From assembly GCA_018657065.1 (NCBI GenBank), contig JABHXU010000019.1, positions 1-43,536 of the forward strand: 43,536 nucleotides of DNA. The letters run 5' to 3'. A program made the translations under genes and the position numbers. This document shows positions 19,338 to 43,536 of this stretch, piece after piece. The notes beneath the pieces were generated by a model that made no database searches, had not been told where the DNA came from, and was given only the letters and a program-made list of their open reading frames with translations. The stretch is from an archaeon (lineage in GTDB: Archaea; Nanobdellota; Nanobdellia; Woesearchaeales; GW2011-AR15). Within the stretch, counting starts at the first letter, position 1. Each line of letters starts with the position of its first letter.

Positions 19338-19472
19338 TTATCTTTCTTTTTTATCCTGACAATTTCTACATCTTGCTGCATATTTATCAACAACTTGTTT
19401 AGCTATTCTGCTTAGTCTACTATCAACAGCAACCATATAATTTGCTTCTGCCCCACATATTGAACATTTCAT
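19338..19472 (-). CDS. 44-residue zinc-ribbon-like protein
   Basis: ATG at 19472 follows AGGTGA at good spacing. CSIC near the start and CRNC near the end flank a basic helix with VAVDSRLSRIAKQVVDKYAA, which could be a dimerising or nucleic-acid-contacting segment. It lies alone between the YkgJ-like gene and acr3. No family recognised. Confidence 0.6.
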   Translation of the reverse strand: MKCSICGAEANYMVAVDSRLSRIAKQVVDKYAARCRNCQDKKER

Positions 19473-19576
19473 AAAGTTTCACCTAAAATTATTATGTTGT
19501 ATTAGAATATATATTTTTTGAAAAAAAAGCTTTTGGGATGTGCAAACATCGTGTAGACCAATTTAGTTAATGTAAA

Positions 19577-20587
19577 TTATGTATTCCAAAATTTCTTTTT
19601 ATGCAGAATTTTTCCTAAATATACTAATCCAAGCATTATAGGGACTTCCCAAAATAATCCCATTGTTGTTCCTAATGCAGCTTGAGAACCCAAACCAAAA
19701 AGAGTGATTGCTGTTGCAATAGCAATTTCAAAATGGCTCGAAGAACCAATAATAACTGAAATAATTGCTTCTTTATACCTAAGTTTGAATAATTTTGTTA
19801 TGAAAATATTGATGCCTACAACAATTATAAATCCAAGTAATAGTGGAACAGATACAAGTAACATTTCTCCTGGATTTTTCAATAAAACATCTCCGTTTAA
19901 TGTAAATAATACTATTAATGTAAAGAGTAATGCAATAATAGAAATATTACCTACTGCAGGTTTATATTTTGTTTCAAACCAATTTAGTCCTTTTCTAGCA
20001 ATAAGTAGTTTTTTGGAAATATATCCAACAATTAAAGGCAGACCAATGAACACAAGTACAGAAATCAATAGAGCATATCTATCAAGTGAGATTCCTTGAA
20101 TTCCTGTTAAAAGAACAACAACAGGAGCATATAAAAACATGATTGTTAGTGTATTAATACTTGTTGTAATAACATTTTGTTCTTGATTTCCTTTTGCTAG
20201 ACTACCCCAAACAATAACCATTGCAGTGCAAGGGCTTGAACCTAAAAGAACTAAGGCAACTATTAACTGATCATATCCTTGAAGAAAAATATTTGCTAGA
20301 ATAACAGTAACAATTGGTGCAATAATCCAATTTGATAAAAGTGTTAATAAAATTGGTTTAGGTGCTTTAAAAAGTTTTTTAACTTCTTTAATTTGAAAAT
20401 TCAAAAGAGCAGGATACATCATTAAAAATAGACAAATACCAATTGGAACAGAAACATTACCAATTTGCCAGTTATTCAGTAAAACACTTAATCCTGGTAG
20501 ATACTGAGAGAAAAGAATACCTATTAACATGCAAATAAAAACCCAAACATACAAATATTTTTCAAAATTATTTAATACTTTTTTCAT
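19577..20587 (-). CDS. acr3: ACR3-family arsenite efflux transporter
   Basis: 336 residues with ten membrane segments, the normal ACR3 length. The hallmark LLGSSPCTAMVIVWGSLAKG holds the essential Cys of TM4. The second half includes SVIIGSSSHFEIAIATAITL, the other conserved ACR3 block. It exports As(III) using the proton gradient. Unlike typical ars operons, no ArsR or ArsC lies next to it; the ArsM gene is 12 kb away. It ends the chromosomal part, about 80 nt from the left border of the integrated element. Confidence 0.92.
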   Translation of the reverse strand: MKKVLNNFEKYLYVWVFICMLIGILFSQYLPGLSVLLNNWQIGNVSVPIGICLFLMMYPALLNFQIKEVKKLFKAPKPILLTLLSNWIIAPIVTVILANIFLQGYDQLIVALVLLGSSPCTAMVIVWGSLAKGNQEQNVITTSINTLTIMFLYAPVVVLLTGIQGISLDRYALLISVLVFIGLPLIVGYISKKLLIARKGLNWFETKYKPAVGNISIIALLFTLIVLFTLNGDVLLKNPGEMLLVSVPLLLGFIIVVGINIFITKLFKLRYKEAIISVIIGSSSHFEIAIATAITLFGLGSQAALGTTMGLFWEVPIMLGLVYLGKILHKKKFWNT

Positions 20588-20669: not shown

Positions 20670-20680
20670 TGCGGGGGAAG
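20670..20680. repeat. attL core
   Basis: TGCGGGGGAAG, identical to the tRNA-Leu 3' end at the right border. It holds the discriminator complement, the seven acceptor-stem bases and three T-stem bases. The tRNA similarity stops here, as expected for a remnant left by site-specific integration. Confidence 0.8.
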
Positions 20681-20692
20681 TGAACTAAACCC

Positions 20693-20709
20693 ATTGGGTT
20701 TAATACGTG
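20693..20709 (+). repeat. Left 17-bp inner inverted repeat
   Basis: ATTGGGTTTAATACGTG, the exact reverse complement of 43370-43386. It lies 12 nt inside attL. It overlaps a second dyad, AAACCCA-T-TGGGTTT (20687-20701), and lies just upstream of the integrase TATA box. It could serve as an integrase arm site that also represses the gene. Confidence 0.8.
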
Positions 20710-20717
20710 GCAGAACA

Positions 20718-20727
20718 CTTAAATATA
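20718..20727 (+). promoter_or_regulatory. TATA box of the integrase gene
   Basis: CTTAAATATA ends 20 nt before ATG 20748, so transcription would begin at or near the start codon. This supports 20748 rather than the TTG at 20694. Confidence 0.55.
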
Positions 20728-20747
20728 AAGAATTCTTTTTTATTCAT

Positions 20748-22088
20748 ATGAAAAAGAAATTTGTCGACGACAAATTAGATAAATTTGAAAGAGAATATAA
20801 GAATATTTCTGGGAAATGTCAATCCAGTAGGTTTCTATCTACACCATTGAATAATAAATTATTATTAGAATTTATTGAAGCAAAAAGAAAGGGAAGTTAC
20901 GGTAGGTTACTGTACAAAAGTCAAATTCAATATAAAACACTTGTTAAAAAAGCAAGAAACATTGCACGTATTGAAAAACACTTTAAAAAAGATATTGATA
21001 AAATATCAGAAAAAGAAATGTTGAATTACCGTGAGATGTTAAATGCCAATAAAATCTTATGTTATAAAACAACAGTTATTTGGGGGAAGAAGACATCAAA
21101 GACTCCAAAATTTAAATTGTCTAAAACTAATAGACCTTTAAGTTATAGAACTAAGTGTGACTATAAAGAAAACTTTTCGGATTTTCACAGATTTGTAAGG
21201 GAATATTTTTTTCAAACAGAAAACAGAAAAATTCCAGATATTACTAAGTTTTTTCAAATTCAATGTCCCTCAGATTTTAATGAAATAACTGTTGAATATA
21301 TTCCTGAAGAAGATATTCCAACACTATTAGAAAATATACAAACTAGAAAATTTAAACATATGGTACAGTTAAGCTTAATGTCTGGAGCAAGACCGTGTGA
21401 AATAACAAAAGTGAGATATGGAAATAAGTATAACTTATATAAAAATTCTGAAGGAAAATGGATCATTAAATTACCCAAAGTGAAGAGAGTTTCATATAAG
21501 AAATTCCCGTTTGTTATTGACCTTTATGAAGAAGAGTTGGGACCATATTTCAATAGTTTAAAACTTATAGAAGGAGATCTTGTTTTTAATTATACACAGA
21601 AAACATTTAGAAAATTAATGAAACATTATACCATTAAATATCTTGGAAAACACTATTCTCCTAAAATATTAAGAAAATCTGCTCGAATGATACGAACAAA
21701 TTCTGGTGAAACGGAAATGTTCATAAATAAATTGATGGGTCATGCACCTGGTTCAAAAGTTCAAGCACATTACACAAATTATGAAGGGATTAAAAGTAAT
21801 AAAAACGCAGTAGATAGGTTGAAAGAAATTCAATATCCTTCTTTAAAATCAGACTATGAGAAATTAACACGTGAAATGTTCGCATTAAAAAGAAAAAAGA
21901 AAGAAGAAGTAAAAGAAGTCAAAAAGGAAGAAGTTAAACCTGTTAAAAAAGAAGCAGAACCTGTAAAAGAAAAAGCAGAAGCTAAGGAAAAACCTAAAGA
22001 CGACAAGGAAAAGAAAAAACCTGCAACAAAAAAAGTAACAAAAGAAGTCAAAAAGGAAGAAAAACCTAAAACTTCAAAAAAAGAATAA
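20748..22088 (+). CDS. int: Tyrosine-type integrase of the element
   Basis: 446 residues from ATG 20748. A TTG 18 codons upstream is in frame but lies within the border repeat. The catalytic domain holds Arg in LMSGARPCEITKVRYG and Lys in a beta-hairpin (KVKRVSYKK). Box II is KILRKSAR (Arg present, usual His replaced by Lys), then LMGHAPGSK and the nucleophile in AHYTN. The N-terminal half is a SAM-like arm-binding region. A Lys/Glu/Pro-rich tail (about 385-446) is unusual. The gene lies adjacent to attL and would integrate the element at the tRNA-Leu end. Unlike SSV-type integrases, the gene is not split by the att site. Confidence 0.88.
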   Translation: MKKKFVDDKLDKFEREYKNISGKCQSSRFLSTPLNNKLLLEFIEAKRKGSYGRLLYKSQIQYKTLVKKARNIARIEKHFKKDIDKISEKEMLNYREMLNANKILCYKTTVIWGKKTSKTPKFKLSKTNRPLSYRTKCDYKENFSDFHRFVREYFFQTENRKIPDITKFFQIQCPSDFNEITVEYIPEEDIPTLLENIQTRKFKHMVQLSLMSGARPCEITKVRYGNKYNLYKNSEGKWIIKLPKVKRVSYKKFPFVIDLYEEELGPYFNSLKLIEGDLVFNYTQKTFRKLMKHYTIKYLGKHYSPKILRKSARMIRTNSGETEMFINKLMGHAPGSKVQAHYTNYEGIKSNKNAVDRLKEIQYPSLKSDYEKLTREMFALKRKKKEEVKEVKKEEVKPVKKEAEPVKEKAEAKEKPKDDKEKKKPATKKVTKEVKKEEKPKTSKKE

Positions 22089-22142: not shown

Positions 22143-23810
22143 TTATTCCATTGGAATGATTCCTAATTGCCTAATTCCTTTGATAGGTAACAAAGTTAAT
22201 TCTCCTTTTGATTTATATTCAGTATATTCAAGTCTACCTGCTGCGTTTGCTTGTTCATAAGTAGATGAGCCAACCATTGTTGTCTCAAAACAATCAATTC
22301 CCATTTCTGACTCTGCTGCTACATCCCAACAAATAAAAGCATGTCCTGGAACAAGTGCAATATAAGGGTTCATACCAATATTTTCTAATGCTGAGGCAAA
22401 CAATAATACACCATCAATACAGTTTGCAGAAGCCAAATCAATAGATTCTGAAGGTAATTTTATTCTTTGTGACGCTTCTTGGTTTGAACTAAAACTTACA
22501 GGAGAATTAATATAAGTTATACCCATTGCTTGAACAACATTATAGATTGCTTCAACTTCATCCCCAGAATATTCAGTAAAATCTGCAGGTAAAGTACATG
22601 TACCACATTGATACCCAGTCATAGCTCTGTTAGATTTTAATTCTGCAGCAACTCTGATTATTTGGTCTACTTTTTCAATATGAGGAGTAACCCATGCACC
22701 TATTAAGTAAGCAGTTGATACCCATTCATCGTTTGATTGAACAGCCCACACCATAGTATCTTTTGCATACATTTTGATTGGTTTAGTGTCCTCAGCAATC
22801 TTTTTGTAATCTTGAGTTACATAATAATATAGATCTGCGTATTTCATCTCAGTTATATCATCAGCAATGTATGAATAAATTTGAGGTGTTTGTTTAACAA
22901 TTTTTGTCTCTCCAGCCTCAAACGTTTCAGTAACTGTACCATAAGTAGTATGACCTTTAATCTGGGCATTAAAAGTTACAGTTACTGGGTGTGCTTCATT
23001 ATTAGTATATTCATACTCAATTAAGGAATAATTAAGTGCAGGGTATTGATTGTATACACCAGCCATTACATATGGAAGATGTCTAATTTCTAAGTCGTAA
23101 AGCATTGTATTTTCTAATTCATATTTTTTGTCATATAAGGTTGATTTATAAGAATAAATTTCATTTCTTTTATCTTCAACATCTTGTTTTAATGGATCTG
23201 GATCATATCCAAGAGTTTCTAAATCCATACTATTGATTCCAAGGAAGGATTTAAAAGACATCATATGAGAATCAATTTCTGTTGCATATGCTTTCATCTC
23301 ATCTATTTTTGCTAATTTGTCTTCTTTTGAAATTTCTTCACTTTCAATTTCTGCTTTTAGTTTTTCAAAAGAAATAACTTCTTCATTATATTGTTCTTGT
23401 AGTTTATCAATATCAACAATTAATTTTTCATACGTGTTAACTTTTTTTTGTTGAAGTTCTAATTCAAAAAATGAAGAATCAATTTGTGCTAGTTTTAATT
23501 CAGTATTAACTTTTCTTTTAGTTAAGGCTTCTCTATTTTCTCTAATATATTCATCTTGTACTTTTAGATTTTTGTCATAAAGTTCTAATTCTCCCTGGAG
23601 TTGAGATATTAATTCAAGTCTTTCAGAGTCGTCCATGTCGTCCATTAGAGTTTCTGTTTTATCAGTTATGTTTCTCCATTGATCTGTCAAAAAATCTTGA
23701 TTTTCAAAAAACTGTGCTTCAATTTTTTTATTTGCACAACTTGTCACAAATATTGCAAGTACTAATGATATGATTATGATTTTGTTTGAAAACTTTTTCA
23801 ACATATTCAC
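22143..23810 (-). CDS. Lipoprotein with coiled coil and transglutaminase-like domain
   Basis: 555 residues. Lipoprotein signal at residues 1-26 with lipobox VTSC. Residues 30-225 are long coiled coils rich in Glu, Lys and Leu. A beta-rich middle domain follows, then a C-terminal transglutaminase/peptidase-like domain with Cys in ASANCIDGVLLFASALENIG, His in VPGHAFICWD and an acidic residue in GIDCFET: a C-H-D/E triad. The protein would sit on the outer cell face. An exported enzyme on a plasmid-like element suggests cell-surface modification, contact or exclusion. Downstream of the coiled-coil gene at 23877 (66-nt gap), same strand. Confidence 0.75.
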   Translation of the reverse strand: MNMLKKFSNKIIIISLVLAIFVTSCANKKIEAQFFENQDFLTDQWRNITDKTETLMDDMDDSERLELISQLQGELELYDKNLKVQDEYIRENREALTKRKVNTELKLAQIDSSFFELELQQKKVNTYEKLIVDIDKLQEQYNEEVISFEKLKAEIESEEISKEDKLAKIDEMKAYATEIDSHMMSFKSFLGINSMDLETLGYDPDPLKQDVEDKRNEIYSYKSTLYDKKYELENTMLYDLEIRHLPYVMAGVYNQYPALNYSLIEYEYTNNEAHPVTVTFNAQIKGHTTYGTVTETFEAGETKIVKQTPQIYSYIADDITEMKYADLYYYVTQDYKKIAEDTKPIKMYAKDTMVWAVQSNDEWVSTAYLIGAWVTPHIEKVDQIIRVAAELKSNRAMTGYQCGTCTLPADFTEYSGDEVEAIYNVVQAMGITYINSPVSFSSNQEASQRIKLPSESIDLASANCIDGVLLFASALENIGMNPYIALVPGHAFICWDVAAESEMGIDCFETTMVGSSTYEQANAAGRLEYTEYKSKGELTLLPIKGIRQLGIIPME

Positions 23811-23876: not shown

Positions 23877-24881
23877 TTAAACAATACTTACAACATATCC
23901 AGAAAATTCACTTAATCTTGATTCAAGTTTTATTTTTTTATCTTGATAATTAAGATGTTTTAGAATATTTTTTTTGTCAGAAATATCTTCTTTAAGTCTC
24001 TTAATTTTGTCCACTAGGTGTTCAAGCTTATACTGTTGTTCTTTATAATCCATTATAATTAAGGGTTTATCCATTTCAGTATTTATCTGAGACTTTTTGT
24101 CATTTAGCAAAATATATTCGGACCTTAAACTTACTAATTTTTCTTTGTCAATCTTTCTGCTTAAAATCTTCTCTTTGTTTTTGATAGGTATATTTGTTTT
24201 TGATATTTCAACTTTTAATTTTTTTATTTCATCAATAACTACTAAATTTTTATCCTTAACAATAGTTTTTAGAGGATATTCAAGATAGTCTAGGTATACA
24301 GATTTTATATTTTGTTTATGATATATTTTTCTAAACGCTTTTTCAAATGCTTTTAATTGAATGATTATTTTTGATTTTATCTTTAAAGATGTGTCTTCAA
24401 TTTCTTGGAGTTCCCGTTCAAATTTTTTTATTTTTCGATATTCTCGACTTTCTTTTAGTTTTTCAACTTGAAGATTTGCTTTTTCTTGTTTTTTTATTGA
24501 ATCATCAAGGTCAGTCTCAAGTAGTGCTAATTCTTCTTCAAGTTTATCGCTTTGGTCAAGAACATCATTTAATTCATTGATTTTTGAGTTTAGTGTTTTA
24601 TATTCAGTAACAGCATGATCTTTTGTTGAGTTAAAAAGTTGAACTATTGTATTTTCAAAGTCTTTAAGATTAAGTGCTATCTTTTTCATAGTATTATCAA
24701 AAAAGTTTGATAGAATATAGTAAGGTTTTCTAGTGTCTTCATTAAATTCATGTATCTTTTCTTCAAAATCTTTACAAAAATCTACAATTTTTAAATAGTC
24801 TAAATCAGGAACAGTAATTGATTCAAGAAAGAAATTTGTTTTTTTTATGAAATTTTCTCGGTTACCGTGCATAATTTGCAA
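23877..24881 (-). CDS. Coiled-coil protein, start uncertain
   Basis: 334 residues from TTG 24881, mainly long coiled coils (about residues 90-330) with no membrane segment or known motif. The frame stays open upstream to a TAA near 25034 and reads like protein (for example SLTNNLETLEFEKIKDASVF), but it has no ATG, GTG or TTG. The real start may be an ATT near 25020 or may have mutated. This would put the start back-to-back with the PrimPol gene. Possible roles include segregation or a structural partner; unknown. Confidence 0.65.
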   Translation of the reverse strand: MQIMHGNRENFIKKTNFFLESITVPDLDYLKIVDFCKDFEEKIHEFNEDTRKPYYILSNFFDNTMKKIALNLKDFENTIVQLFNSTKDHAVTEYKTLNSKINELNDVLDQSDKLEEELALLETDLDDSIKKQEKANLQVEKLKESREYRKIKKFERELQEIEDTSLKIKSKIIIQLKAFEKAFRKIYHKQNIKSVYLDYLEYPLKTIVKDKNLVVIDEIKKLKVEISKTNIPIKNKEKILSRKIDKEKLVSLRSEYILLNDKKSQINTEMDKPLIIMDYKEQQYKLEHLVDKIKRLKEDISDKKNILKHLNYQDKKIKLESRLSEFSGYVVSIV

Positions 24882-25034
24882 TTCTTTTTGTCCAAAAACA
24901 CTAGCATCTTTAATTTTTTCAAATTCAAGGGTTTCTAAATTATTTGTTAGAGATGAAGAAAATTTGCATTTAGAAGATGATACAGAGATATCAAAAAGTA
25001 AATTGATGTTTGTTGTACCAATAAGGTGTTGTTA

Positions 25035-27182
25035 ATGAAGATACCAATACAACTGCAAAAAAAAGATTATCGTTTCAAATTGCTTGGACACTGGGGATTT
25101 TGGAAAAAAAACAATGAAATACATATGATGGAAGGAAGAGAATATGAAAAAATATCTAAAGATAAGAATTGGAAACCTCTTGGCAAAGCACCCCATAAAG
25201 GAAACACAACAGAATACTCTCTTTTTGATTCAGCTCTTAAAAGCCATATTCAAATGAAATATAATTATGGTGTTCAAGCTGGTCCAGGTAGTTTAAGAAT
25301 AATTGATGTTGATAATGAAAAATTAATTCCATATTTTGAAAATGAATTGTCGACACTTACAATTGAAACTGGAAGTGGTGGAAGACACTATTATGTAATT
25401 AGCGAATATGACAAGAATCACCGTTTTAAAAATAGTGGTGGTGAAATGCGATGTAAGAATTGGTATGTTGTTGGTCCAAATTCAACACATCCAAATGGGA
25501 AAATGTACAAGGTTGTTAGAGACACAGAAATTCAAATAATTTCGGACATACATTTGTTAAAAATAATTGGACCTCATATTATAAAAAATAATTCTACACC
25601 AATTTTAACTTCAAAAGACACATCAAGAAGTGGTAAAGAATTTGGCATTATTTGTAGTCTGTTAAGAAAGAATAAAACTAAAGAAGAAATTTTTAGTGAG
25701 ATGAATTTATATTCTAAATGGGCAAATTCTTCGGGTCAATATCGTGAGCTAACATATAATAAAGCACTTGAAATAATTAGTAAGAAAATAATGAATCCTG
25801 AAATTAATAAAAAATCAAAGAAAGATGATTTTGTTAGAGCTAGTTTTATTGAAGATAGAAAAAGAAAACTATTGATAGAGCAATTATACGATCCAGTTAG
25901 TAAAAAGAATACTTTTTGTATATATGATGCTGAAAAAGATAAATATGAATCAATGGATGAGTTTACTGTTGAAGGTACAAAATTTAAACCACTTTTAGGA
26001 GAAGAGATTCAAAAAGGTGCTATATTTTTACCAAGTGAACCAATTGATTACGATTCAGATGTAAATCTTCAAAATCACATAAAAAAATTCATTCACAAAT
26101 GGTTAGACATTCCAAGTGATGTGTTACAATTTGCAGTTTGGAATATTTTAATGAGTTGGGTATATGAACTTTTTCATACAATTAATTACTTACGTGCATT
26201 GGGAGATACTGGAACAGGGAAAAGTAGATTTCTCGATGCATTAGGAGTTTTGCACTATAAATCAATTAGTACTAGTGGAGCAACAACAAGTGCACCTGTC
26301 TTTAGAATAATTGACAAATGGAAAGGTAGTTTGATTATTGATGAAGCTGATTTAAAAAAGTCTGATGAAGCACAAGATATGGTCAAAATAATTAATCAAG
26401 GATATGAAAAAAATAGGTTTATTATGAGGTGTGATACAAATAATTTTGACAATATTAGGTTTTTTGACCCTTTCTGTCCAAAGATATTAGGTAGTAGAAA
26501 AGTATTTACGGATAAAGCTGTAGAAAGTAGATGTATAACTCATGTCATGAGAGGAACAAATAGAAAAGACATTCCATTGAATTTGAATAAAGATTTTTAT
26601 GATGAAGCTTTATTGCTAAGAAATAAACTCCTTTTATGGAGATTTAGAAATTACTATAAAATAGATCCTACTAATAAGCCAAAAATAGATTTGGGTGAAT
26701 TAGAACCAAGAGTAAAACAAATTGTTGGCAGTTACATTTGTTTGTTTAGTAAAGATAAAACGCAGTTAAAGATATTTAAAGAGTTTATAGGAAAGCATCA
26801 AGATGAAATTGTATATGAAAGAAAAAATAGTTTTGATGGACAAATTGTTGAAACAATACATAAAATGTTATCTGATGAAACCAAGTATTTCAACAACGCA
26901 GATATTATTTCCTATGGTGAATTAAAGGGTTATAATGGCAATGTGTTATCTACTCAAGTTTTAAGCAGAATGCTAAAATCTTTAGGATTTAAAAAGGCAA
27001 AACTTAAACGATTGGGTAATGAAACTAAAAGAGTAATTCCATTAAATAAAATTCATTTAGAGATGTTATTCAAAAGATATGGTTTGGATGAAGTAGATTT
27101 ATCAACACAAAAGAATTTGAGTCCAATTGACAAATTTGACACCACAGATTTTAAAATACATGCCCATGATGATTCATTGTAA
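25035..27182 (+). CDS. PrimPol-helicase replication protein
   Basis: 715 residues from ATG 25035 (AAGGTG eight nt upstream). The N-terminal archaeo-eukaryotic primase/polymerase domain shows IIDVD at 89-93 (metal-binding DxD), ETGSGGRHYYV at 111-121 (SxH nucleotide motif) and GGEMRCKNWYVVGPNSTHP at 135-153. The central helicase has Walker A GDTGTGKS near 390 and Walker B LIIDEAD near 432. It is followed by a C-terminal region of possible winged-helix type. This PrimPol plus helicase fusion is typical of plasmids and viruses that start their own replication. It marks the element as a replicon. Confidence 0.88.
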   Translation: MKIPIQLQKKDYRFKLLGHWGFWKKNNEIHMMEGREYEKISKDKNWKPLGKAPHKGNTTEYSLFDSALKSHIQMKYNYGVQAGPGSLRIIDVDNEKLIPYFENELSTLTIETGSGGRHYYVISEYDKNHRFKNSGGEMRCKNWYVVGPNSTHPNGKMYKVVRDTEIQIISDIHLLKIIGPHIIKNNSTPILTSKDTSRSGKEFGIICSLLRKNKTKEEIFSEMNLYSKWANSSGQYRELTYNKALEIISKKIMNPEINKKSKKDDFVRASFIEDRKRKLLIEQLYDPVSKKNTFCIYDAEKDKYESMDEFTVEGTKFKPLLGEEIQKGAIFLPSEPIDYDSDVNLQNHIKKFIHKWLDIPSDVLQFAVWNILMSWVYELFHTINYLRALGDTGTGKSRFLDALGVLHYKSISTSGATTSAPVFRIIDKWKGSLIIDEADLKKSDEAQDMVKIINQGYEKNRFIMRCDTNNFDNIRFFDPFCPKILGSRKVFTDKAVESRCITHVMRGTNRKDIPLNLNKDFYDEALLLRNKLLLWRFRNYYKIDPTNKPKIDLGELEPRVKQIVGSYICLFSKDKTQLKIFKEFIGKHQDEIVYERKNSFDGQIVETIHKMLSDETKYFNNADIISYGELKGYNGNVLSTQVLSRMLKSLGFKKAKLKRLGNETKRVIPLNKIHLEMLFKRYGLDEVDLSTQKNLSPIDKFDTTDFKIHAHDDSL

Positions 27183-27509: not shown

Positions 27510-27650
27510 ATGTCATCAAAAAATATCACTTTAAGAGTTAATGAAGAATTGTATGAAGAGTATAGAAATTATTGTAAAAAGAAAGGTTTTGTTATTTCCC
27601 GTCAATTTGAAATTATGATGGAAAAACAGATGGAAGAGGATACAAAATGA
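27510..27650 (+). CDS. Ribbon-helix-helix regulator of the Type I R-M operon
   Basis: 46 residues. NITLRVNEELYEEYRNYCKK fits the RHH pattern: a short basic strand, then two helices with a turn (KKGFVISRQFEIMM). It has a GGGGGAG ribosome site and overlaps hsdM by 4 nt (ATGA). By analogy with CopG/Arc-type repressors it binds DNA as a dimer, probably at the dyad 27427-27448. A restriction operon headed by a small regulator is consistent with timing control after entry into a new host. Confidence 0.65.
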   Translation: MSSKNITLRVNEELYEEYRNYCKKKGFVISRQFEIMMEKQMEEDTK

Positions 27651-29383
27651 AGGAGCAAATTAACATATCTGCAGAAGTCAGCTTTATATGGGAAACTGCT
27701 GAAATCATTAGAGACACATATAAAAAACATCAAAGTCAAGATATTATTCTTCCTTTTGTCGTTCTTAGAAGAATTGAATCAGTTCTTTTAGAAGAAAGAA
27801 ACAAAGTTGAAAAACTTCTTGGAAATAGCCTTAGTAAACTTAGTCCAAGTGATGCTAAAAACATTATGTCAAAGAAAGTTCAGGCATCAATAAGTTTTGA
27901 TAATTCTTCTAAATTTACGTTTAAGATATTAGCATCTGAAAAAGATACTGCGATAAAAGAAAACTTCAAGAGTTATGTTAATGGTTTTACTGATAATATT
28001 AAGAAAATATTGGATAATTTTGGTATATTAAAAGAATTAAATAAACTGGAAAAAGATAAACTCATTTATCCATTGATTAAACAATATGCAGAACTTGATT
28101 TGTCTCCTAGTGTTGTATCAAATCAAAAAATGGGTTATATTTTTGAGGAAGTTATTAGAAGATTTTCTGAACAAACTGGTGAAGAAGCAGGAGAGCATTT
28201 TACTCCAAGAGAAATCATAGAATTAATGGTTGACATTTTAATTGATGGAGATAAAATCAAAGATGGTGAATTAAAAACAATTTATGATCCAGCATGTGGA
28301 ACTGACGGAATGCTAGTTATTGGAAAAGATCATATTTTAGACAAAGTTAATCCAAAAGCAAACGTAGTTTTATATGGTCAAGAAAAGCAACCTGAAACAT
28401 GGGCTGTTGGTGCATCTGATATGTTGTTAAAAGGAGAAAATCCTGATAATATTAAATATGGAAATACTTTAACGAATGACCAATTTCCAAATGAAACTTT
28501 TGATTATATGCTTTCTAATCCTCCTTTTGGAGTAAAATGGAAAAAAGATAAACAAGATATTTTAGATGATACTTCTGGAAGATTTCATAAAGACATGTTA
28601 CCAACTATTAGAGATGGTGCATTTTTATTTCTTTTACATATGATAAGTAAAATGAAGCCTCCTCAAGAAGGAGGAAGTTCTATTGCAATTGTTTTTAATG
28701 GTTCTCCTGGCTTTAATGGTGATGCAGGGTCAGGAGAAAGTAAAATCAGGCAATACTTAATAGCAAATGATCTAATTGAAGCAATAATTGGTCTGCCAAA
28801 GGATTTATTTTATAACACGAATATAGGCACTTATGTTTGGGTACTTAGAAATAAAAAAAGTAATGAAAGAAAAGGAAAAATCCAACTTGTTAATGCTGTT
28901 GAATTTTCAGAGAAGATGCCAAAGTCCCTTGGGAAAAAAACAAAGTATATATCAGATAAACAAATAAAGCAAATTTGTCTTATATATAATAGTTTTAAGG
29001 AAAGTGAACATTGTAAAATATTTGATACTATAGATTTTGGTTATACTAAAGTTCATTTGGAATTAACAGATGTCAATGAAGATGGTAATCCGAAAAAAGA
29101 AACAGTAATAAAAAAAATTAAAGGTCAGAAAAGAGAAGTCACACAAAATGTTAAAATTTCAGATAGTGAATATATTCCATTAAAAGAGGATATAAATGAA
29201 TATTTAAAGCGAGAAGTTGAAAAACCTTATAAAATTAAAAATAAAACCATCGGTTATGAAATTAATTTTACACAATATTTTTACAAATATACTCCATTAA
29301 GAAAACAAGAAGACGTCATTAAAGAGTTTAATGATTTAGAGAAAGAAAATAAAACTCTGTTGAAGGATTTGGGATTACTATGA
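27647..29383 (+). CDS. hsdM: Type I restriction-modification methyltransferase HsdM
   Basis: 578 residues. The N-terminal helical domain includes LPFVVLRRIESVL. The SAM domain has GEHFTPREIIELM, motif I DPACGTDGMLV and motif IV NPPFG, giving N6-adenine methylation. VFNGSPGFNGDAGSGESKIR and the QYLIANDLIEAIIGLPKDLF block are characteristic of HsdM. Length is normal. It overlaps the RHH gene and the hsdS start by 4 nt each. It should form M2S with HsdS, but hsdS is frameshifted here. Confidence 0.95.
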   Translation: MKEQINISAEVSFIWETAEIIRDTYKKHQSQDIILPFVVLRRIESVLLEERNKVEKLLGNSLSKLSPSDAKNIMSKKVQASISFDNSSKFTFKILASEKDTAIKENFKSYVNGFTDNIKKILDNFGILKELNKLEKDKLIYPLIKQYAELDLSPSVVSNQKMGYIFEEVIRRFSEQTGEEAGEHFTPREIIELMVDILIDGDKIKDGELKTIYDPACGTDGMLVIGKDHILDKVNPKANVVLYGQEKQPETWAVGASDMLLKGENPDNIKYGNTLTNDQFPNETFDYMLSNPPFGVKWKKDKQDILDDTSGRFHKDMLPTIRDGAFLFLLHMISKMKPPQEGGSSIAIVFNGSPGFNGDAGSGESKIRQYLIANDLIEAIIGLPKDLFYNTNIGTYVWVLRNKKSNERKGKIQLVNAVEFSEKMPKSLGKKTKYISDKQIKQICLIYNSFKESEHCKIFDTIDFGYTKVHLELTDVNEDGNPKKETVIKKIKGQKREVTQNVKISDSEYIPLKEDINEYLKREVEKPYKIKNKTIGYEINFTQYFYKYTPLRKQEDVIKEFNDLEKENKTLLKDLGLL

Positions 29384-30643
29384 TTAAAAGTAATGAATAT
29401 AAACTAATTGAGGATAAATGGTTTAATTCAAAAAAATTTGATAGAAAAAGATTAAAATATTTTATCAATTTTTTACGTGGAATAGAACCAGGAAGTAAAA
29501 ATTATGGAATTGAAGGTAAAGGAAAAAGGTTTATTAGAGTAAATGATATTGGAAGTAATAATAAAGATAATGTTTATGTTAACTTAGAAACAAATGCTAT
29601 ATGCAAAAAGGAAGATATTCTTTTGTGTCTAGATGGATCTCCTGGATTAGTTGAAAAAGGGTTCGAAGGAATTTTTTCTACAGGGTTGAGAAAAATTGAG
29701 TTAAAATCTTTTGAACTTATTTATGATTATCTTTTCTATTCCTTAAAATGTGATTTTTCTCAAGAATGTATAACTTTTTTTTCACAAGGTACAACAATAA
29801 TGCACTCCAGTGATGCTCCAAATTATTTGAAACAGCCATTACCTTCAATTGAAGAACAAATTATAATTTCTAATTACCTTGATAATGTTACAAAAAAGAT
29901 TGACATAGTGATAGCAAATAAGAAGAAGACAAATCGAAGTTTTAACTGACTCACTTAAAATTTCGATTTTTAAGGCAATTACAGAAGGTTTTAATAATCA
30001 CCTATTTGATTCTTCAAAAATTGAATTTATAGAAAGAGTACCAAAACATTGGAAGCAAACAAAAATAAAATATTTTGCTAATATTCAAAGAGGAAAGTTT
30101 ACACATCGTCCAAGAAATGATCCTAAAATGTACAACGGACCATATCCCTTTATTCAAACAGGTGATGTATCAAAAGCATCAAAATATATTAATCATTTCA
30201 CTCAAACGTTAAGTGAAGAAGGATTAAAAGTAAGTAAAATGATTCCTAAGAAAACATTACTAATAACCATAGCTGCTAATATTGGAGATATAGCAATATT
30301 AAATTTTGATTCTTGTTTTCCCGACAGTATAATTGGGATTAACACTGTTTCAAAAATATCAAATGAATACTTATATTATTTATTAACTTCTTTAAAACAA
30401 AATATTCTAAAATATGCAAAAATTAACACTCAAATGAATATCAATGAAAAGACAATTAAACCAATTAGGGTACCTATTCCACCTAAGGGTGAGCAAGAAA
30501 TCATATTAGGAAGAATAAGTAAATTAGAAAAACTAAACAATTTGTTAAAAGAAAATTTAAAAAATGAAATTTTAAAACTTGAAGAATACAAAACAATCCT
30601 CATCAATGACGTTGTTACTGGAAAAATGAAGGTGACTGCTTAA
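29380..30643 (+). pseudogene. hsdS: Type I specificity subunit HsdS, frameshifted
   Basis: The first frame (29380-29949) encodes target-recognition domain 1 and the start of the central helix (SIEEQIIISNYLDNVTKKID). In the short repeat aagaagaagac (about 29919-29930) the frame is lost. The next frame continues the normal sequence QIEVLTDSLKISIFKAITEG, then domain 2 (KHWKQTKIKYFANIQRGKF) to the TAA at 30641-30643. One extra base, an A before CAAATCG, would restore about 421 residues. Either a mutation, a phase-variable tract, or an assembly error. A split HsdS can act as half-subunits, but the second half has no obvious start before 30128. It overlaps hsdR by 1 nt. Confidence 0.85.
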
Positions 30644-33534
30644 TGTCCAGACCATTAGAAAAAAACTTTGAAGATCATTTTTGTCAGAAATTGGAAGATC
30701 ATAGTTATCGAAAAAGACTAACCAAAGATATTGACCTAAAAATCAATATTGATGATTCTTTATTGACTGAATTTCTTGAATCTACACAAAAAGAGGAATT
30801 AAAAGAAATCAAAAGCATTCTTGGTGATAGATGGTTAGCTAAGATAAAAGAAACAGTTAATGAAAAGTTAAAAAACAATAAACTCTTTGAGATTATAAAA
30901 AATGGAATAACAATTGAAACTGTTCCAATAAAATTGATTTACTTTAAACCTGAAACGACATTCAATAAAGAGCAACTAAAAAAATACGAATCAAATATAT
31001 TTAGTTATGTAAGGCAATTCAAATTTAGAGATACAATGGAATCCATTGATATTGTATTATTCTTAAATGGATTTGCTCTTGTTACAATTGAACTAAAAAG
31101 TCCATTTAATGGACAAGTTGTTGATGATGCAGTTGTTCAGTATATTGCAGATCGTGATAAAACATTACAAATATTTAAAACACCAATATTGCATATAGCG
31201 GCTGATACCAAGAATGTTAAAATTACAACTGAATTTCTTAGAAATAATGTGGAAGACTTTGTTTGGTTTAATAAAGAACTTGAAAATCCTATTGTAGAAG
31301 ATGAGTTTCAAGTTGAATATCTCTATAATGAAATATTACTTCCTGAATCATTAATTGAAGTAATAGAACATTATCTTTCATGCTTTAAATTCAAATTACA
31401 AAATGGCAAAAAAGTTACTACCTTTTTTTTCCCAAGATATCATCAAAGAAGAACTGTTCTTAAATTAACAAATGATATTATCAAAAACTACAAGAAAAAA
31501 AGGAAGTTAGATCTAAAATATTTAATTCAACATTCAGCAGGGTCAGGAAAAAGTTATACAATAGCAGTTATTCAAAAATTCTTAAGATACATTCATATCA
31601 ATAATGAAGCAATATTCAATTCTATTTTAATACTAACAGACAGAATCAATCTTGATACACAATTAAAAGGAACAATTGGTTCAAGTGAAACTCAGAAGAA
31701 TATAATATCTTATGTTGATTCTACTGCTGAACTTGCTGAGGCACTTAATAAAAATACAAAAGTAATTATTTCAACTATTCAGAAATTTTCAGTTAAAAAA
31801 TTAGATGAAATTTTAGAATCGCAAAAAGGTAAGAAAATTTGTTTTATTTTGGATGAGGCACATCGTAGCCAATCAGGAAAATTACAAAGACATTTATTAG
31901 GTCATTTTGAAGAAGATGAACCTGAATCTGATAAAAAGTATTTTGAAACTTTTTATAAAAGAAAATTTCCAAATTTTGTATTTGTAGCTTTAACAGCAAC
32001 TCCTAGTGAAAAAACCCTAACTATGTTTGGTGAACCTTTTGATGTATATAGTATGGATCAGGCAGAACAAGAAGGTCATATTCTAAATGTATCCGAAAAT
32101 ATTGTCACTTATTCAACTTTATTTCAACTCTCAGAGAAACTGAAAAGTCAAGATGAATATCCTCCAATGATCGTTGCTAAAAAGTTAAAGAATAAAGCTT
32201 ATGAGGATATAAATGTAATAAAAGACAAAATAAGTGTTATTCTAAAAATATTTGATGCTCAAACTAAGTATGCAATAAAAAATGAATCTGCAAAAACAAT
32301 GATTGTAACATCAAGCAGAAAAAGTGCTGTAAAATACAAAGTATTACTTGATCAGATAATAAAACAAAAAAATCTTCCTTACAAATCTTTAGTTGCATTT
32401 ACAGGTGGAGTTAAATTATCCAAATCAGATTTATCCTTATTAAATCAAAAAGAAGATAGTGAGAATTTTACTGAAAAAAATATGAACAAGGTAAAAGATG
32501 ATATTGAAGAAGTTTACAAAAAGACAGAATATAGATTTTTAATTGTTGCAAATAAATATCAATACGGTTTCAATGAACCATTATTGCACACTATGTTCCT
32601 TGATAAATCAGTAGCAGATATTAATGCAGTTCAGACGATTAGCAGATTAAACAGAATTTATCCAAATAAAAATAATACCTTAGTTGTTGACTTTACAAAT
32701 TCATATAAAAAAATAATTAAAGCATTTCAAAAATTCAAGAAAGAAGTAAATGATTATTCTGGAATTAATGTAAAAGAATTACCTGAACTGTATAATGAAT
32801 TACTTAACAAGAATATATTCACAAGAAAAGATATTCAGGAGTTCAAGATAGCATATTATAAAGAGGAAAATTCAATAAAATTGGACAATATTGCTTCAAC
32901 AATTGAAAAAAGAGTAAACTCTAAATTTTCAGTAGATGAAAGAAGAGCTTTTAGAGGGTCTCTTAATAAGTTTAACAAAACATATAGTTATCTCAATAAC
33001 CTTATCAAAATAAATGATGATGAACTAAAAGACTTTGCATTGTTTAGTCATTATCTATTTAAGTATCTTAATCCAGAAGGGAAAAGTCGAAAATTAGATG
33101 AAGAGCTAAAAAAAGTATTTTTGCTTAAACACAGAATAAAATTAGAAAAAACAGAACCATTGGTAATAAGAGAAACAGGTCCAAAATATGGGGCAAAAAG
33201 ACAAATAAGATACGCTACTGTTAAAGAAGTAGTAGACGCTATTAACACTAAATATAAAGTCTTAACTACTGATAATGAAAAAGTGATCATTGAAGATTAT
33301 ATTAATAAAATTCTAACTGATGAAGAAATAAAATCTGATTTAGAAGGTAATAAAGACAAAGATTTGGATAAAGTATATGAAGCAATGATTTCAAAAAAAT
33401 TAGGAGAAAAGTTCATAGATTTTTTTATCGAACACAATCCTGAAAAATTAAGTGAATATTTGCAGACAGGTATAAGTAAGTTCATTAATTTAGAGGCTTT
33501 TAGATTAGCCGCTAGAGAAGTTGGTGTAATTTAG
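30643..33534 (+). CDS. hsdR: Type I restriction endonuclease/translocase HsdR
   Basis: 963 residues, near the usual ~1,000. The N-terminal nuclease domain shows SIDIVLFLNGFALVTIELKS (D...ExK, PD-(D/E)XK type). It is followed by the SF2 motor: Walker A SAGSGKSYT, FILDEAHRSQSG, LTATP, and QTISRLNRIYP. The C-terminal helical region contacts HsdM. It starts within the last base of hsdS. Its 3' end overlaps the end of the opposite-strand gene 33531-34346 by 4 nt. Cutting depends on a functional S subunit, which looks broken. Confidence 0.95.
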   Translation: MSRPLEKNFEDHFCQKLEDHSYRKRLTKDIDLKINIDDSLLTEFLESTQKEELKEIKSILGDRWLAKIKETVNEKLKNNKLFEIIKNGITIETVPIKLIYFKPETTFNKEQLKKYESNIFSYVRQFKFRDTMESIDIVLFLNGFALVTIELKSPFNGQVVDDAVVQYIADRDKTLQIFKTPILHIAADTKNVKITTEFLRNNVEDFVWFNKELENPIVEDEFQVEYLYNEILLPESLIEVIEHYLSCFKFKLQNGKKVTTFFFPRYHQRRTVLKLTNDIIKNYKKKRKLDLKYLIQHSAGSGKSYTIAVIQKFLRYIHINNEAIFNSILILTDRINLDTQLKGTIGSSETQKNIISYVDSTAELAEALNKNTKVIISTIQKFSVKKLDEILESQKGKKICFILDEAHRSQSGKLQRHLLGHFEEDEPESDKKYFETFYKRKFPNFVFVALTATPSEKTLTMFGEPFDVYSMDQAEQEGHILNVSENIVTYSTLFQLSEKLKSQDEYPPMIVAKKLKNKAYEDINVIKDKISVILKIFDAQTKYAIKNESAKTMIVTSSRKSAVKYKVLLDQIIKQKNLPYKSLVAFTGGVKLSKSDLSLLNQKEDSENFTEKNMNKVKDDIEEVYKKTEYRFLIVANKYQYGFNEPLLHTMFLDKSVADINAVQTISRLNRIYPNKNNTLVVDFTNSYKKIIKAFQKFKKEVNDYSGINVKELPELYNELLNKNIFTRKDIQEFKIAYYKEENSIKLDNIASTIEKRVNSKFSVDERRAFRGSLNKFNKTYSYLNNLIKINDDELKDFALFSHYLFKYLNPEGKSRKLDEELKKVFLLKHRIKLEKTEPLVIRETGPKYGAKRQIRYATVKEVVDAINTKYKVLTTDNEKVIIEDYINKILTDEEIKSDLEGNKDKDLDKVYEAMISKKLGEKFIDFFIEHNPEKLSEYLQTGISKFINLEAFRLAAREVGVI

Positions 33535-34770: not shown

Positions 34771-36219
34771 CTAGATTACTTTTAGCTTATCAATTATCCA
34801 AATCATTCCTTCGGTGTCAAGTTTGCAATATTCAAGTAAATCTTTCCTTATTTGCTCTTTGTTTTCGACTTCATTAAAAACACTCTCAAAATATGAAACA
34901 GATGCTAAACCGCCATTATTGATGTTAAGCTCTTTGTAGCTTTTTCCTGTTATTGCTGGAAGAACAGCTTTAATTGAGCAACTTCCTTTTTGTTCTGGGT
35001 TGTAATAATCAAAATTTCTGAATGGTGTGAGCAAATCAACAATTCGCTTTATAATAGAATCAACCCAATTTTTGTATTTTGGAAATGCTATTGCTAACTC
35101 TTTTAATCTTGTAATCTCAAAAGATTGGTTAAAAACAATGATACTTCCTTCTGTGCCTAAGACTTTAATCATTTCTTGTAAGAATTTTTCTCTTGGATCA
35201 TCTTGAGAATCATGCAAATATTCAAAATGTTTTATTTGTTTTCCATCATCAACATGAAGACTAAATTGAAATGGAATTTGTTGATATGGTTTTGTGCCAT
35301 CATACAAGGGTACAGCAGTTTGGAAAGTCTCAAAATCAAGATAGTAAAGAGGATACTTTAAGCCACTCAAGAATTTCTTAATCTCTTCTTTGTTAATGTG
35401 AACTTTTCCAGAGTTAGCATACTTTCTTTGAATTTCCTGTTTTCCATTTAATTTAAAGTCATTTGGTATATCTTTTATAGAAAAAATCTTTGCTTCCAAT
35501 AATTCTAAAGACTTTTTACCTCCCCTGTATAATTCAAAAACATGACTTTCAGGCAGAAAATTCCAGCAATCTTCTGAAACACACTCAAAACCATTATTAC
35601 AACCATTGCCAATACTTACATCTGGAGCTTCTTTATTATTAATAATCTCCATCATGTCGTCTATTCTTTCTTCTATCCCAATAATTGCTTCTTCAACTTC
35701 TGACGTAATCTCTTCTTGTGTTAAAAGTTTTTTTGGATTTATTTCTCCTTTCTTAATAAATTTATTATTAATGTGAAGTAAGAAACATTTCCGAATCTTT
35801 AATCCTGCTAATTGATAAACATGTCTTTGAAAAGAAACATCATGAATATGCTCCTCTTTAACTTTTGTTGAACCTTTAACCTCAATAATATCCCACTCAT
35901 CCTTTCCAACAGGAACAAGAACGTCTGCTCTTGCATATAATGCTCCTGCAACAATCCCCGCTTCAAATATGATTTTTCTTTTCTTTAGAAGCTCTTGAGT
36001 TTTTTGAATATTAAGTTTGAAATCTTTCCCTTCTTCAGGAAGATCAACTCCTTTAGGAAAGAGCTTTTTTGCTAATTGACCTATAATATTACCTTGCTGA
36101 ATTATATATTCCGTTGCCAAATCAAATTCTGGAATTTTATCTAAATCATGAAACATCATCCAGAGATACTTTGGGCATTGTAGCCCTATCATGTATTTGG
36201 ATTTAGTTATGAGTGGCAT
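34771..36219 (-). CDS. DUF2779 dual-nuclease protein
   Basis: 482 residues. Residues 1-20 (ITKSKYMIGLQCPKYLWMMF) and the downstream RADVLV...WDIIEVKGST with FQRHVYQLAG form a Cas4/RecB-like PD-(D/E)XK core (D, ExK, QxxxY). A Cys cluster is present at CNNGFECVSEDC. The second half is a DEDD/RNase-H-like exonuclease: YYLDFETFQTAVPLYDG, IVFNQSFEITRLKELA and YCKLDTEGM. This matches the DUF2779 family. Last gene of the transposon operon, 1 nt after res. A processing nuclease acting after Type III cleavage is a reasonable guess. Confidence 0.85.
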   Translation of the reverse strand: MPLITKSKYMIGLQCPKYLWMMFHDLDKIPEFDLATEYIIQQGNIIGQLAKKLFPKGVDLPEEGKDFKLNIQKTQELLKKRKIIFEAGIVAGALYARADVLVPVGKDEWDIIEVKGSTKVKEEHIHDVSFQRHVYQLAGLKIRKCFLLHINNKFIKKGEINPKKLLTQEEITSEVEEAIIGIEERIDDMMEIINNKEAPDVSIGNGCNNGFECVSEDCWNFLPESHVFELYRGGKKSLELLEAKIFSIKDIPNDFKLNGKQEIQRKYANSGKVHINKEEIKKFLSGLKYPLYYLDFETFQTAVPLYDGTKPYQQIPFQFSLHVDDGKQIKHFEYLHDSQDDPREKFLQEMIKVLGTEGSIIVFNQSFEITRLKELAIAFPKYKNWVDSIIKRIVDLLTPFRNFDYYNPEQKGSCSIKAVLPAITGKSYKELNINNGGLASVSYFESVFNEVENKEQIRKDLLEYCKLDTEGMIWIIDKLKVI

Positions 36220-36220
36220 T

Positions 36221-38911
36221 TTAATCAGCTATTGAACTTATCAATTCTTGCTCAAATTCATTCTCCCTATCTTGATTATAAAATGGCAAACCAATTATTC
36301 TATAATTTTTAGTTTCTACAAACTTATTTAATCCTTGCTTCCCGTACCTCTCTTTAATCTTAGCTAAGAATTTTTGTTTCCATATATCCTGATCTTCCCA
36401 AGGGGTTCCTTTTGGCTCTATAAATATTTGATAAGTTGAGGTTTCTCCTTTCTTTGTTTTCATAAATAATACAAAATCTGGTTTAAATGTTTGGCCGTCT
36501 ATAAAATCATATATCCCAAAATGTAGTTCATTTCTTATTAAATAAACTTCTTTATATTTTTCTTTTGTATCCTTAGAATCTGCAAATTTTTGAAACCATT
36601 TTACAAAAAATCTTTCTTGATCCGTTCCATAATTAGCATTAAAAACATACCAAGCTTCATCTTTAACAAGTTCCTTTTGCCCCTTAAGTCTTTCTACCTC
36701 TTTTTTGTTTATTTTAAGAGTCTTATCATAAAATATTTTAGATATTTTCTCTTGTCTAACAAAATCTGACCCAACATAATTAACCCTAGTTCTTTCTAAA
36801 CTTTCTTTTATTTTGTTTAATAGCTTCAAGACTGCTTCTAATTTATGCTTGTTTGAGATATTTTCTAAATCTTCTTTTGTTCCTTTGAAGTCTATGCTAA
36901 TGCCTGCCAAAAATTCTTTTTTATCTATTAAGTCATTCATAGAATTAAGAGCATTTGGAAATATTTGTTTTAAATTCTCAAAATTAAAGAAGTCAATTTT
37001 TGATAAAGCATTTTTTGTAATGTGGTTATCAATATCCTTTAATGAGAATGTTTTAGGTTTCTTAATTATGTTCAAATTATCGTATTTTTCATCCTTAAAT
37101 TCTAAAGCGTCTGAAACCTTTCCCTTTCCAGAATAAATCTCATAAGCTTCATTCTTTTGGGTAAAATCCATATCTGCAAAGGATTTAATTTTAGAATAAT
37201 CTTTTCTTACTTTCTTATTTAAATGGATTATTCCTGTTTTGTAAAAAGAAGTTTTCTTAAAATCTTCTTTTAGGTTTAATTCTTTTTCTTCAACATCATC
37301 TAAATCAATACCTAACTCTTCCCTTATAGCATTTTTTAAATCTGCGACATATCTTGATTCATTCCAACTATGGAAGTATAATCCTTCTAAAACTCTTAGT
37401 TCTTTTTGAGTATCTTCATCAAATTTTCTTTTATATTTGTCTTGTGTTTCATCTAAAATAAATGGATAATATCTTGCACCTCTACCGATTAACTGAGCTT
37501 CAGATATGGTTGATTTAGCAATTCTTCCTTTTGTGCTTCCACCTGTCGCCTGTTTATCTGAAACTCTAACAATATCAAACAGATTTAATACATCCCATCC
37601 CTCATTTAATTTTTGAACTGCAAAAATTGCCCTTATATTGTTATTTGCAGATTCTAACGAATTTAGGATCTTTTCTTGAGAGATAACTTCTTCTTTATCT
37701 CTTTGAGAAATTGATTTTTTATCTAAGCTTTCTTCATTCACATTCAAACAATTTTTTTCAGAAAATCCTCTTTGTATCTTTTTAACAAGTTCTGAAATTG
37801 ATATTTTTTCTTTATCATAGAATTCAAATACTTTTTTCATAATCCTTTCATTACTTTTCTTTTTAATTTCTTCAATGTCTTTATTTGAAAGATTATCAAT
37901 CAGTTTTCTAAAGTCTAATTCATTTTGTTTAGATTCTACAATTTCTTTTTGAGCTTTAAACATGATTACTGGCTTAAAATTCTTTAATCCAAATGATTCT
38001 GGAAATTCTTTTGCGTATTTTAATGCAATATCTTGTCTGTATTGGTTTACTAAAATTGCTGTTAGCATCCTGTATCTTTTGTCTCCATCTACTCTGAATA
38101 ATTCAATATCTTTAGAATATCCTGCTTGATGAAAGCTTGGCAAATCATATTTATACAATAATCTTTTTAGATATTTTTCTTTAATGCCAGGATATGTTTC
38201 AAAACCCATTGTTGCTGTAAATTCTAAAAGTAAGCTTAGTTTGTCTTTTTTTAGGATTTCTTCAATAGTATTTTCCCAATTTGGCTTATTAGTTAATGTT
38301 TTTTGTTTAGTCTTAACTTGTCCATGATGGGCTTCATCTGCTATTAAGACAATTCTTTTATCTTTAAAACTATCAAATGTAACTGCATTTTCTTTTTCGT
38401 TGTGCATATCTGAATGAAGTTTTTGTATTGTTGTAAAACAAATATTTATTTCATCTTTATTAGTAGAATCAAAATTATCTACTTCTCTTATTTGGATTGG
38501 TTTTCCATCAATTACAATTTTTTGATTAAATAGATATTTTATAGAAGATTGATCTAAGAAGTTTTCTTTGGTTTTTCCGATAATATTATTTGAATTAACG
38601 AAGAATAAGAAGTTATTATACCCTTTCTTGTAAAGATAATTTATCAATCCTGCCATAATTAGAGTTTTACCTGAACCTGTTGCCATGTTAAATAAAACTG
38701 CTCTTGGAATTGGCTTTTCTTGATATTGCTCAAAATAAGAAATAAACATCTGAAAAGCTTTTTCTTGATATTCTCTTAATGGAAAGTTTGGGTTTAGATT
38801 ATCTTTTATTTCTTTAGGAATTTCAATCTGGCTTATTGTTGCTCTTCCTAATTCTTTTAGAATATCTTCACATAACCAGTCTTTATTTCCTGCGAGAGTA
38901 TTTTGGCTCAT
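36221..38911 (-). CDS. res: Type III restriction subunit Res
   Basis: 896 residues, near the normal Res length. SF2 helicase motifs: MATGSGKTLIMAGLINYLYK, IADEAHHG, FTATMGFE, FAVQKLNEGWDVLNLFDIVR and AQLIGRGARYYPF. The C-terminal nuclease is PDFVLF...FIEPKGTPWED (PD...ExK), the arrangement of EcoP15I-type Res. It tracks on DNA after recognising unmethylated sites and cleaves. Starts in a 4-nt overlap with the preceding gene and ends 1 nt before DUF2779. Confidence 0.93.
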   Translation of the reverse strand: MSQNTLAGNKDWLCEDILKELGRATISQIEIPKEIKDNLNPNFPLREYQEKAFQMFISYFEQYQEKPIPRAVLFNMATGSGKTLIMAGLINYLYKKGYNNFLFFVNSNNIIGKTKENFLDQSSIKYLFNQKIVIDGKPIQIREVDNFDSTNKDEINICFTTIQKLHSDMHNEKENAVTFDSFKDKRIVLIADEAHHGQVKTKQKTLTNKPNWENTIEEILKKDKLSLLLEFTATMGFETYPGIKEKYLKRLLYKYDLPSFHQAGYSKDIELFRVDGDKRYRMLTAILVNQYRQDIALKYAKEFPESFGLKNFKPVIMFKAQKEIVESKQNELDFRKLIDNLSNKDIEEIKKKSNERIMKKVFEFYDKEKISISELVKKIQRGFSEKNCLNVNEESLDKKSISQRDKEEVISQEKILNSLESANNNIRAIFAVQKLNEGWDVLNLFDIVRVSDKQATGGSTKGRIAKSTISEAQLIGRGARYYPFILDETQDKYKRKFDEDTQKELRVLEGLYFHSWNESRYVADLKNAIREELGIDLDDVEEKELNLKEDFKKTSFYKTGIIHLNKKVRKDYSKIKSFADMDFTQKNEAYEIYSGKGKVSDALEFKDEKYDNLNIIKKPKTFSLKDIDNHITKNALSKIDFFNFENLKQIFPNALNSMNDLIDKKEFLAGISIDFKGTKEDLENISNKHKLEAVLKLLNKIKESLERTRVNYVGSDFVRQEKISKIFYDKTLKINKKEVERLKGQKELVKDEAWYVFNANYGTDQERFFVKWFQKFADSKDTKEKYKEVYLIRNELHFGIYDFIDGQTFKPDFVLFMKTKKGETSTYQIFIEPKGTPWEDQDIWKQKFLAKIKERYGKQGLNKFVETKNYRIIGLPFYNQDRENEFEQELISSIAD

Positions 38912-39483
38912 TTGGCCACCTCTTTTATAAAATCATTAAAATTTTTTAATTTATCTATCGAAAGTCTATGCATTGGATTAGTGGCTTTATACCCTGGTCT
39001 AAATTCTTCTCCTTGATCAATAAATCTAGAATTTTTTTTATATTTTTCTTTATCTATAAAGCCTACAATTATTGCTTCTGTAAAATTCACATCAACAAAA
39101 ATAAAGATATAATAATCTCCTTTCTTATCAATTTGTTGAGCTGCCACTGCAACTTCCCAATATTCTGCTATGCTTCCGTAATTGTAATTTTGAGTTTTAA
39201 CCTCTAAAGAGATATTTTGTGTTACAATTTGAAAATCCCAAGGATCATACTTTACATCTAAATCTTTATTTTTTATATAATCTTTTGGGTGACTTAGATT
39301 ATTTTCAACTAAGATGTTTTCTACTATGGCCTCACCAATTCCTCAAATAAAAGCATCGTTTGGAGAATCAAATTTACTATATCCCCCAACATGCTCTTTT
39401 TGATGAAGATTTTTTGCTTCCTCTCCTGCTTTTATAAAATCTTCATTTATCTTAACTTTAATAAATTCAGTTGACTTAGTCAT
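38908..39483 (-). pseudogene. PD-(D/E)XK nuclease-like gene interrupted by in-frame TGA
   Basis: ATG 39483 overlaps the end of mod by 8 nt. The frame is open to 38908 except TGA at codon 47 (39345-39343), giving 191 codons in total. After the stop: GIGEAIVENILVENN, then DPWDFQIV and ISLEVKTQ, that is Asp80/Asp83 and Glu94-x-Lys96, a nuclease-like core. Restart at a later GTG (39147) would omit that core. So the protein is probably lost unless the TGA is read through. TGG (Trp) is a likely ancestral codon. TGA is a normal stop elsewhere in the window (for example hsdM). Function in an intact operon is unknown. Confidence 0.75.
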
Positions 39484-43369: not shown

Positions 43370-43386
43370 CACGTATTAAACCCAAT
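43370..43386 (-). repeat. Right 17-bp inner inverted repeat
   Basis: CACGTATTAAACCCAAT, exact reverse complement of 20693-20709, 9 nt inside the attR core. Confidence 0.8.
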
Positions 43387-43395
43387 TGGAGTAAA

Positions 43396-43520: not shown

Positions 43521-43536
43521 ATTGAGAATAATGCCT

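Follow-up and report, generated by a model that had tools for sequence, protein, structure and literature searches.

The P0001 gene and its surroundings

The window, that is the whole stretch of archaeal DNA analysed here, is 43,536 nucleotides long; its host is presumably a DPANN archaeon. Checking its open reading frames showed that an intact frame of 555 codons, here named P0001, spans exactly positions 22143-23810 on the minus strand, and the plus-strand reading of the same interval, which contains stops only, was discarded. The GTG at 23810 overlaps a Shine-Dalgarno-like GAGGTGA, and the ATG at 23804 is therefore the likelier start. The frame of the original prediction was thus intact, with the strand corrected to minus and the likelier start giving 553 residues instead of 555. 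The features of the locus are collected in Table 1.

Table 1 Features of the P0001 locus and of the element that carries it (window coordinates)
Feature	Position	Strand	Basis
Left att core TGCGGGGGAAG, 11-bp direct repeat of the tRNA-Leu 3' end	20670-20680	+	Repeat search
17-bp arm, inverted copy of 43370-43386	20693-20709	+	Repeat search
Tyrosine integrase-like gene	20694-22088	+	PF00589, 22.1 bits, below the 27.1 cut-off
P0001 lipoprotein gene, 555 aa (553 from ATG 23804)	22143-23810	-	Frame, translation; SD-like GAGGTGA before ATG 23804
Transglutaminase-like domain, residues 379-530	22221-22676	-	Profile comparisons, alignment
Glu509 codon (FETT), putative third catalytic residue	22284-22286	-	Alignment
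His490 codon	22341-22343	-	Alignment, translation
Cys464 codon, putative nucleophile	22419-22421	-	Alignment, translation
Ig-like region, residues 239-378	22677-23096	-	Beta-rich (low-confidence model); aligns with the start of NF058533 (ProA)
Stalk, charged, Pro/Gly-poor, residues 29-235	23106-23726	-	Composition; coiled coil without statistical support
Signal peptide with lipobox ending at Cys25	23736-23804	-	Translation, hydropathy
P0002, N-truncated copy of an order-wide coiled-coil-like gene, upstream of P0001, same strand	23877-24881	-	Homologue search
Prim-Pol protein	25026-27182	+	PF09250
Type I restriction-modification: HsdM 27647-29383, HsdS-like 29380-29949 and 30128-30643, HsdR 30643-33534	27647-33534	+	
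Type III restriction-modification: Mod 39476-41269, Res 36221-38911; DUF2779/RNase H protein 34771-36219	34771-41269	-	
DDE transposase	41620-42876	+	Domain search
17-bp arm, inverted copy of 20693-20709	43370-43386	-	Repeat search
Intron-containing tRNA-Leu(TAA), integration target	43395-43521	-	ARAGORN with introns; Rfam agrees
Right att core within the tRNA-Leu 3' end	43396-43406	+	Repeat search

The gene lies, as predicted, on a mobile element integrated at a tRNA-Leu(TAA), an assignment that is well supported: integrase, tRNA target and direct att repeat are all present, and the interval is syntenic in G002, a genome of the same genus. Measured from the 11-bp direct repeat next to the integrase to the 3' end of the tRNA, the element is 22.7 kb long. 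The core TGCGGGGGAAG has only two exact copies in the window, of which the one at 20670 ends 13 bp upstream of the start codon of the integrase, and the 17-bp inverted pair lies just inside both cores. Taken alone the 11-bp repeat is weak, since 96 of 2000 resamples have some 11-mer in common with the tRNA; what makes it credible is that it sits at the tRNA 3' end and is accompanied by the 17-bp inverted arms and by the synteny. The specificity subunit of the type I system, whose HsdS-like frames were named by position and by eye, is split over two frames, 178 bp apart, that are flanked by HsdM and HsdR (29380-30643).

The window and contig C8 of the same genome end with the same 141 bp, and the two are therefore probably neighbours. 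On one contig of G002, the homologue of the C8 gene (74% identity) is found about 8.6 kb from the homologues of the genes at 0.8-3.9 kb of the window (45-64%), with the tRNA-Leu between them; its orientation differs from that in the window, which is a point against simple synteny. The flank at 3.9-20.7 kb is much longer in the window than in G002. It includes a gene at 19577-20587 for a transporter, which we take to be arsenite-efflux-like, 92% identical in G009 and with no match in seven of the nine genus and family genomes searched. A 193-bp intergenic stretch (19338-19529), without an Rfam match, is 84% identical to a sequence on contig C1 of G006 near the tRNA-Leu of that genome.

At E<=1e-6, integrase relatives occurred in two of the 334 genomes searched, the own genome included, and Prim-Pol relatives were found in three of 334 genomes, namely the own genome, G006 and G125. 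The 19.5 kb around the G125 Prim-Pol gene held no other element gene and no transglutaminase (TGase) match. Contig C62 of G006, a bin of another genus, corresponds to window positions 22085-43536, with 12,000 bases at 100% and 9,553 at 99.99% identity. Horizontal transfer between genera was considered for this copy and is unproven: C62 (L013, L014) carries the tRNA-Leu type of G000, the genome of the window (100%), the G006 copy proper being 75% identical, so that misbinning in the public genome is the likelier, and probable, explanation.

Homologues of the neighbouring gene P0002 occur in 65 of 118 genomes; their full length is about 410-440 aa, and P0002 is without roughly their first 75 residues. 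A chromosomal copy in the own genome (G000:C13:235476-236435) is 35% identical to it, and no Pfam or NCBIfam family matched P0002 at its cut-off. Co-occurrence of P0001 with this gene had been proposed as a check. P0002, spread across the order, does not track P0001, close relatives of which were found in only four genomes, and in G154 the two homologues are on separate contigs (G280 was outside this comparison). The idea of a two-gene system was dropped.

P0001 is predicted to be a lipoprotein with a helix-rich stalk

At the N-terminus of P0001, a short basic n-region is followed by a hydrophobic stretch and by the lipobox FVTSC with Cys25. This is the pattern of an archaeal lipoprotein, a signal peptide with a lipobox cysteine, and as a sequence pattern it supports the proposed export and the putative lipid modification of P0001. 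The same simple lipobox scan gave two further lipobox-like proteins in the chromosomal flank. Residues 29-235 appear helix-like, with 39% charged residues and only 2 Pro and 3 Gly in 207 positions. The 'long coiled coil' attributed to this region was not borne out: its heptad periodicity was no better than that of shuffled sequences, 143 of 1000 shuffles reaching the P0001 value, and the coiled coil thus stays unproven. The stalk also received the sole Pfam match of P0001 (0.26), with no TGase match at E<=1, as well as the PHROGs match (0.028) and the PADLOC match (0.069).

The C-terminal domain resembles transglutaminases

The transglutaminase-like nature of the C-terminal domain, already proposed from the sequence, is supported by profile comparisons that are indirect but consistent. 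An HMM built from eight other archaeal TGases (alignment A5, transmembrane TGases) gave 29.1 bits for P0001; the highest score among 1000 shuffled P0001 sequences was 8.4 bits, and that among 46 other frames of the window 2.3 bits. Comparison by hhalign of the module alignment (A4, 7 rows) with A5 gave a probability of 97.9. The 552-aa anchored archaeal protein L006 matched both PF01841 (1e-06) and the anti-phage protein ProA (5.5e-13), and L004/L008 are likewise PF01841-positive relatives; these proteins tie the module to TGases. P0001 itself differs from PF01841 (Transglut_core) in that the Pfam model does not match it, but agrees with it through the profile link and through the spacing of 26 residues from Cys to His, the same as in PF01841-type archaeal TGases.

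All 11 sequences of the alignment keep Cys464 and His490. The original prediction of Cys-His-Asp candidates held for these two residues, and most likely not for the third, where Glu509 of the FETT motif aligns in place of the Asp of PF01841; from the alignment, this Glu is most likely the third catalytic residue. It is present in most rows, with FNSS in L021 where others have FETT, and the archaeal relative L056 is without the motif, its C-terminus differing and running off the contig. Single-sequence AlphaFold2 models, made without a usable alignment, had pLDDT values of 37.2 and 40.4, too low to confirm the papain-like fold that the original prediction had named as its check; in this low-confidence prediction the Cys lies on a helix and the His and Glu on strands, in the expected order. 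Foldseek with the second, poor model gave no match at E<=0.001, a result to which we attach no weight.

In the PDB, the A5 profile retrieved only two proteins at E<=0.1, 4fgo 'Periplasmic protein' (0.0021) and 4u65 'Putative cystine protease' (0.0054), both of which we take to be LapG. The A4 profile, that of P0001 itself, retrieved no relative from the PDB, and P0001 had no match to the LapG model NF045674 of NCBIfam at E<=1.

The head is common to P0001 and the anti-phage helicase ProA

The only NCBIfam match of P0001 at E<=1 was NF058533, the anti-phage protein ProA, a DUF4011/DUF3320 helicase-nuclease: residues 254-494 aligned with its positions 7-234 (E 4e-27, 94.2 bits). P0001 and ProA have in common the Ig-like plus TGase-like head, with the motifs GYQ, GQ.IRLP, TCLD/NCID, GHAF and FETT. 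In contrast to ProA, P0001 ends after this module, without helicase or nuclease, so that its 94.2 bits stand against a family cut-off of 1500, and it carries a lipobox and extra cysteines. Of the latter, the CxxC at 402/405 is present in all three archaeal sequences and the cysteines at 494 and 507 in two of them (P0001 and L055), whereas none of the three bacterial modules listed for this comparison has a cysteine at these positions. Such additional cysteines in the archaeal branch would be as expected for an exported domain.

By tblastn, the head was matched in 58 of 72,556 plasmid records. Among the 20 matches listed, seven regions were fetched and six translated (L019 being left out, and the other 51 matches unread). 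In these six cases the module formed the N-terminus of a single giant DUF3320/DUF4011 gene (four) or a split gene adjoining a helicase gene (two), and none was a lipoprotein. L018 and L023 scored 2072 and 2121 bits with ProA, and the best stretch of the Hhe profile (NF042953) was confined to their later parts, which ties the module to ProA and not to Hhe. Among 50,697 phage records, one matched, an unverified fecal scaffold with the match inside a 2026-aa frame; its length and start point to a ProA-like helicase, and the reading as a phage lipoprotein was rejected. In the literature searched, represented mostly by search listings, no description of ProA or of the Ig-TGase module was recognised.

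Close archaeal relatives are few

A search of 371 genomes of the phylum with the A1 alignment matched 61 at E<=0.001, mostly in frames of 210-270 aa. The close family (E<1e-30) was restricted to four genomes, G000, G006, G280 and G154; the first two hold the same DNA, leaving three independent loci. With the G280 protein L055 as query against 352 genomes of the order, there were ten matching genomes at E<=1e-6, of which three (G000, G006 and G154) gave strong matches.

L055, of 374 aa, lacks a stalk but has a transmembrane-like segment; over 322 aligned columns its identity with P0001 is 45%. In the G154 protein L056 (606 aa, cut by the contig end), which is 32% identical in the head, a transmembrane-like segment is combined with a stalk; no similarity between this stalk and that of P0001 was detected (77 of 500 shuffles scored at least as high). 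Both relatives thus combine a membrane anchor with the head, as P0001 does, but their anchor is transmembrane where that of P0001 is a lipobox. Their surroundings look chromosomal, L055 adjoining a CoA-ligase and a DJ-1/PfpI gene and L056 lying near a cupredoxin lipoprotein. Residues 560-604 of L056 match DUF4344, a putative metallopeptidase: near the contig end, the TGase head of the sequence (L056:3-1820) gives way at GHAL to the DUF4344 C-terminus, a switch that may be either a real fusion or an assembly chimera.

Proposed function

We favour, with a probability of about 0.5, the reading that P0001 is a lipid-anchored, extracytoplasmic, TGase-like cysteine enzyme that acts on a cell-surface protein and is carried as cargo by the tRNA-Leu-integrated element. 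It would most likely be a LapG-like cysteine hydrolase that processes surface proteins, or an acyltransferase. LapG, a periplasmic cysteine protease, is soluble. It resembles the proposed P0001 enzyme in being extracytoplasmic and TGase-like, but has no direct sequence match to it. LapG is described as cleaving a surface adhesin (PMC4694147). In P0001, the helix-rich stalk would hold the Ig-like and TGase-like head off the membrane, Cys464 would attack an amide, aided by His490 and Glu509, and the amide would be hydrolysed as by LapG, or the acyl group transferred, on a cell-surface protein. We infer the catalysis, the choice of hydrolysis over cross-linking and the substrate; no substrate gene was recognised beside P0001. 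That L055 and L056 likewise begin with a membrane anchor counts for an anchored enzyme. As to what the element might gain, masking or trimming of a surface receptor, with exclusion of competitors, would be a guess.

The role tied to the element that had been suggested for P0001 was not supported: two of the three independent loci of the close family lie among chromosomal-type genes, and P0002 is a copy of an order-wide gene. The suggested roles in cell contact or in attachment to a host cell would likewise be speculative. The gene could instead be an ordinary chromosomal envelope gene picked up by chance, with a job in envelope upkeep unrelated to the element. The chromosomal-type surroundings of two of the three independent loci and the frequency of simpler TGase frames in the phylum speak for this, but the close family is rare and patchy, unlike a housekeeping gene, and we regard this explanation as rather unlikely. 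More improbable is a surface- or superinfection-exclusion lipoprotein encoded by the element, which would modify a receptor and block incoming viruses or related elements. The location of P0001 on an integrative element with two restriction systems and a head common to an anti-phage helicase would suit such a role; against it, relatives of P0001 lie off recognisable elements, five scans of viral contigs gave no relative, and the Pfam matches of the element include no conjugation genes.

The retention of the module as the front end of a bacterial helicase-nuclease would be consistent with a non-enzymatic sensor or adaptor, in which the Ig-TGase head binds a ligand, as may happen in ProA, and catalysis is unneeded. 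The invariance of the Cys and His in every row of the alignment argues against it, and we consider it very doubtful. A further speculation, to which we give equally little weight, is that the intracellular ProA-type module has a stand-alone counterpart in small archaea, an enzyme anchored at the surface, which the element would use as an outer layer of defence beside its two restriction systems, editing surface proteins before entry of a virus or rival.

Under the favoured reading of P0001 as an anchored surface enzyme, an exported archaeal enzyme family would be linked to the module at the N-terminus of an anti-phage helicase, which is mildly surprising. Once its substrate and chemistry are worked out, the stand-alone form may offer a small testable handle on the role of the module in ProA, and also on the processing of the cell surface by small archaea.
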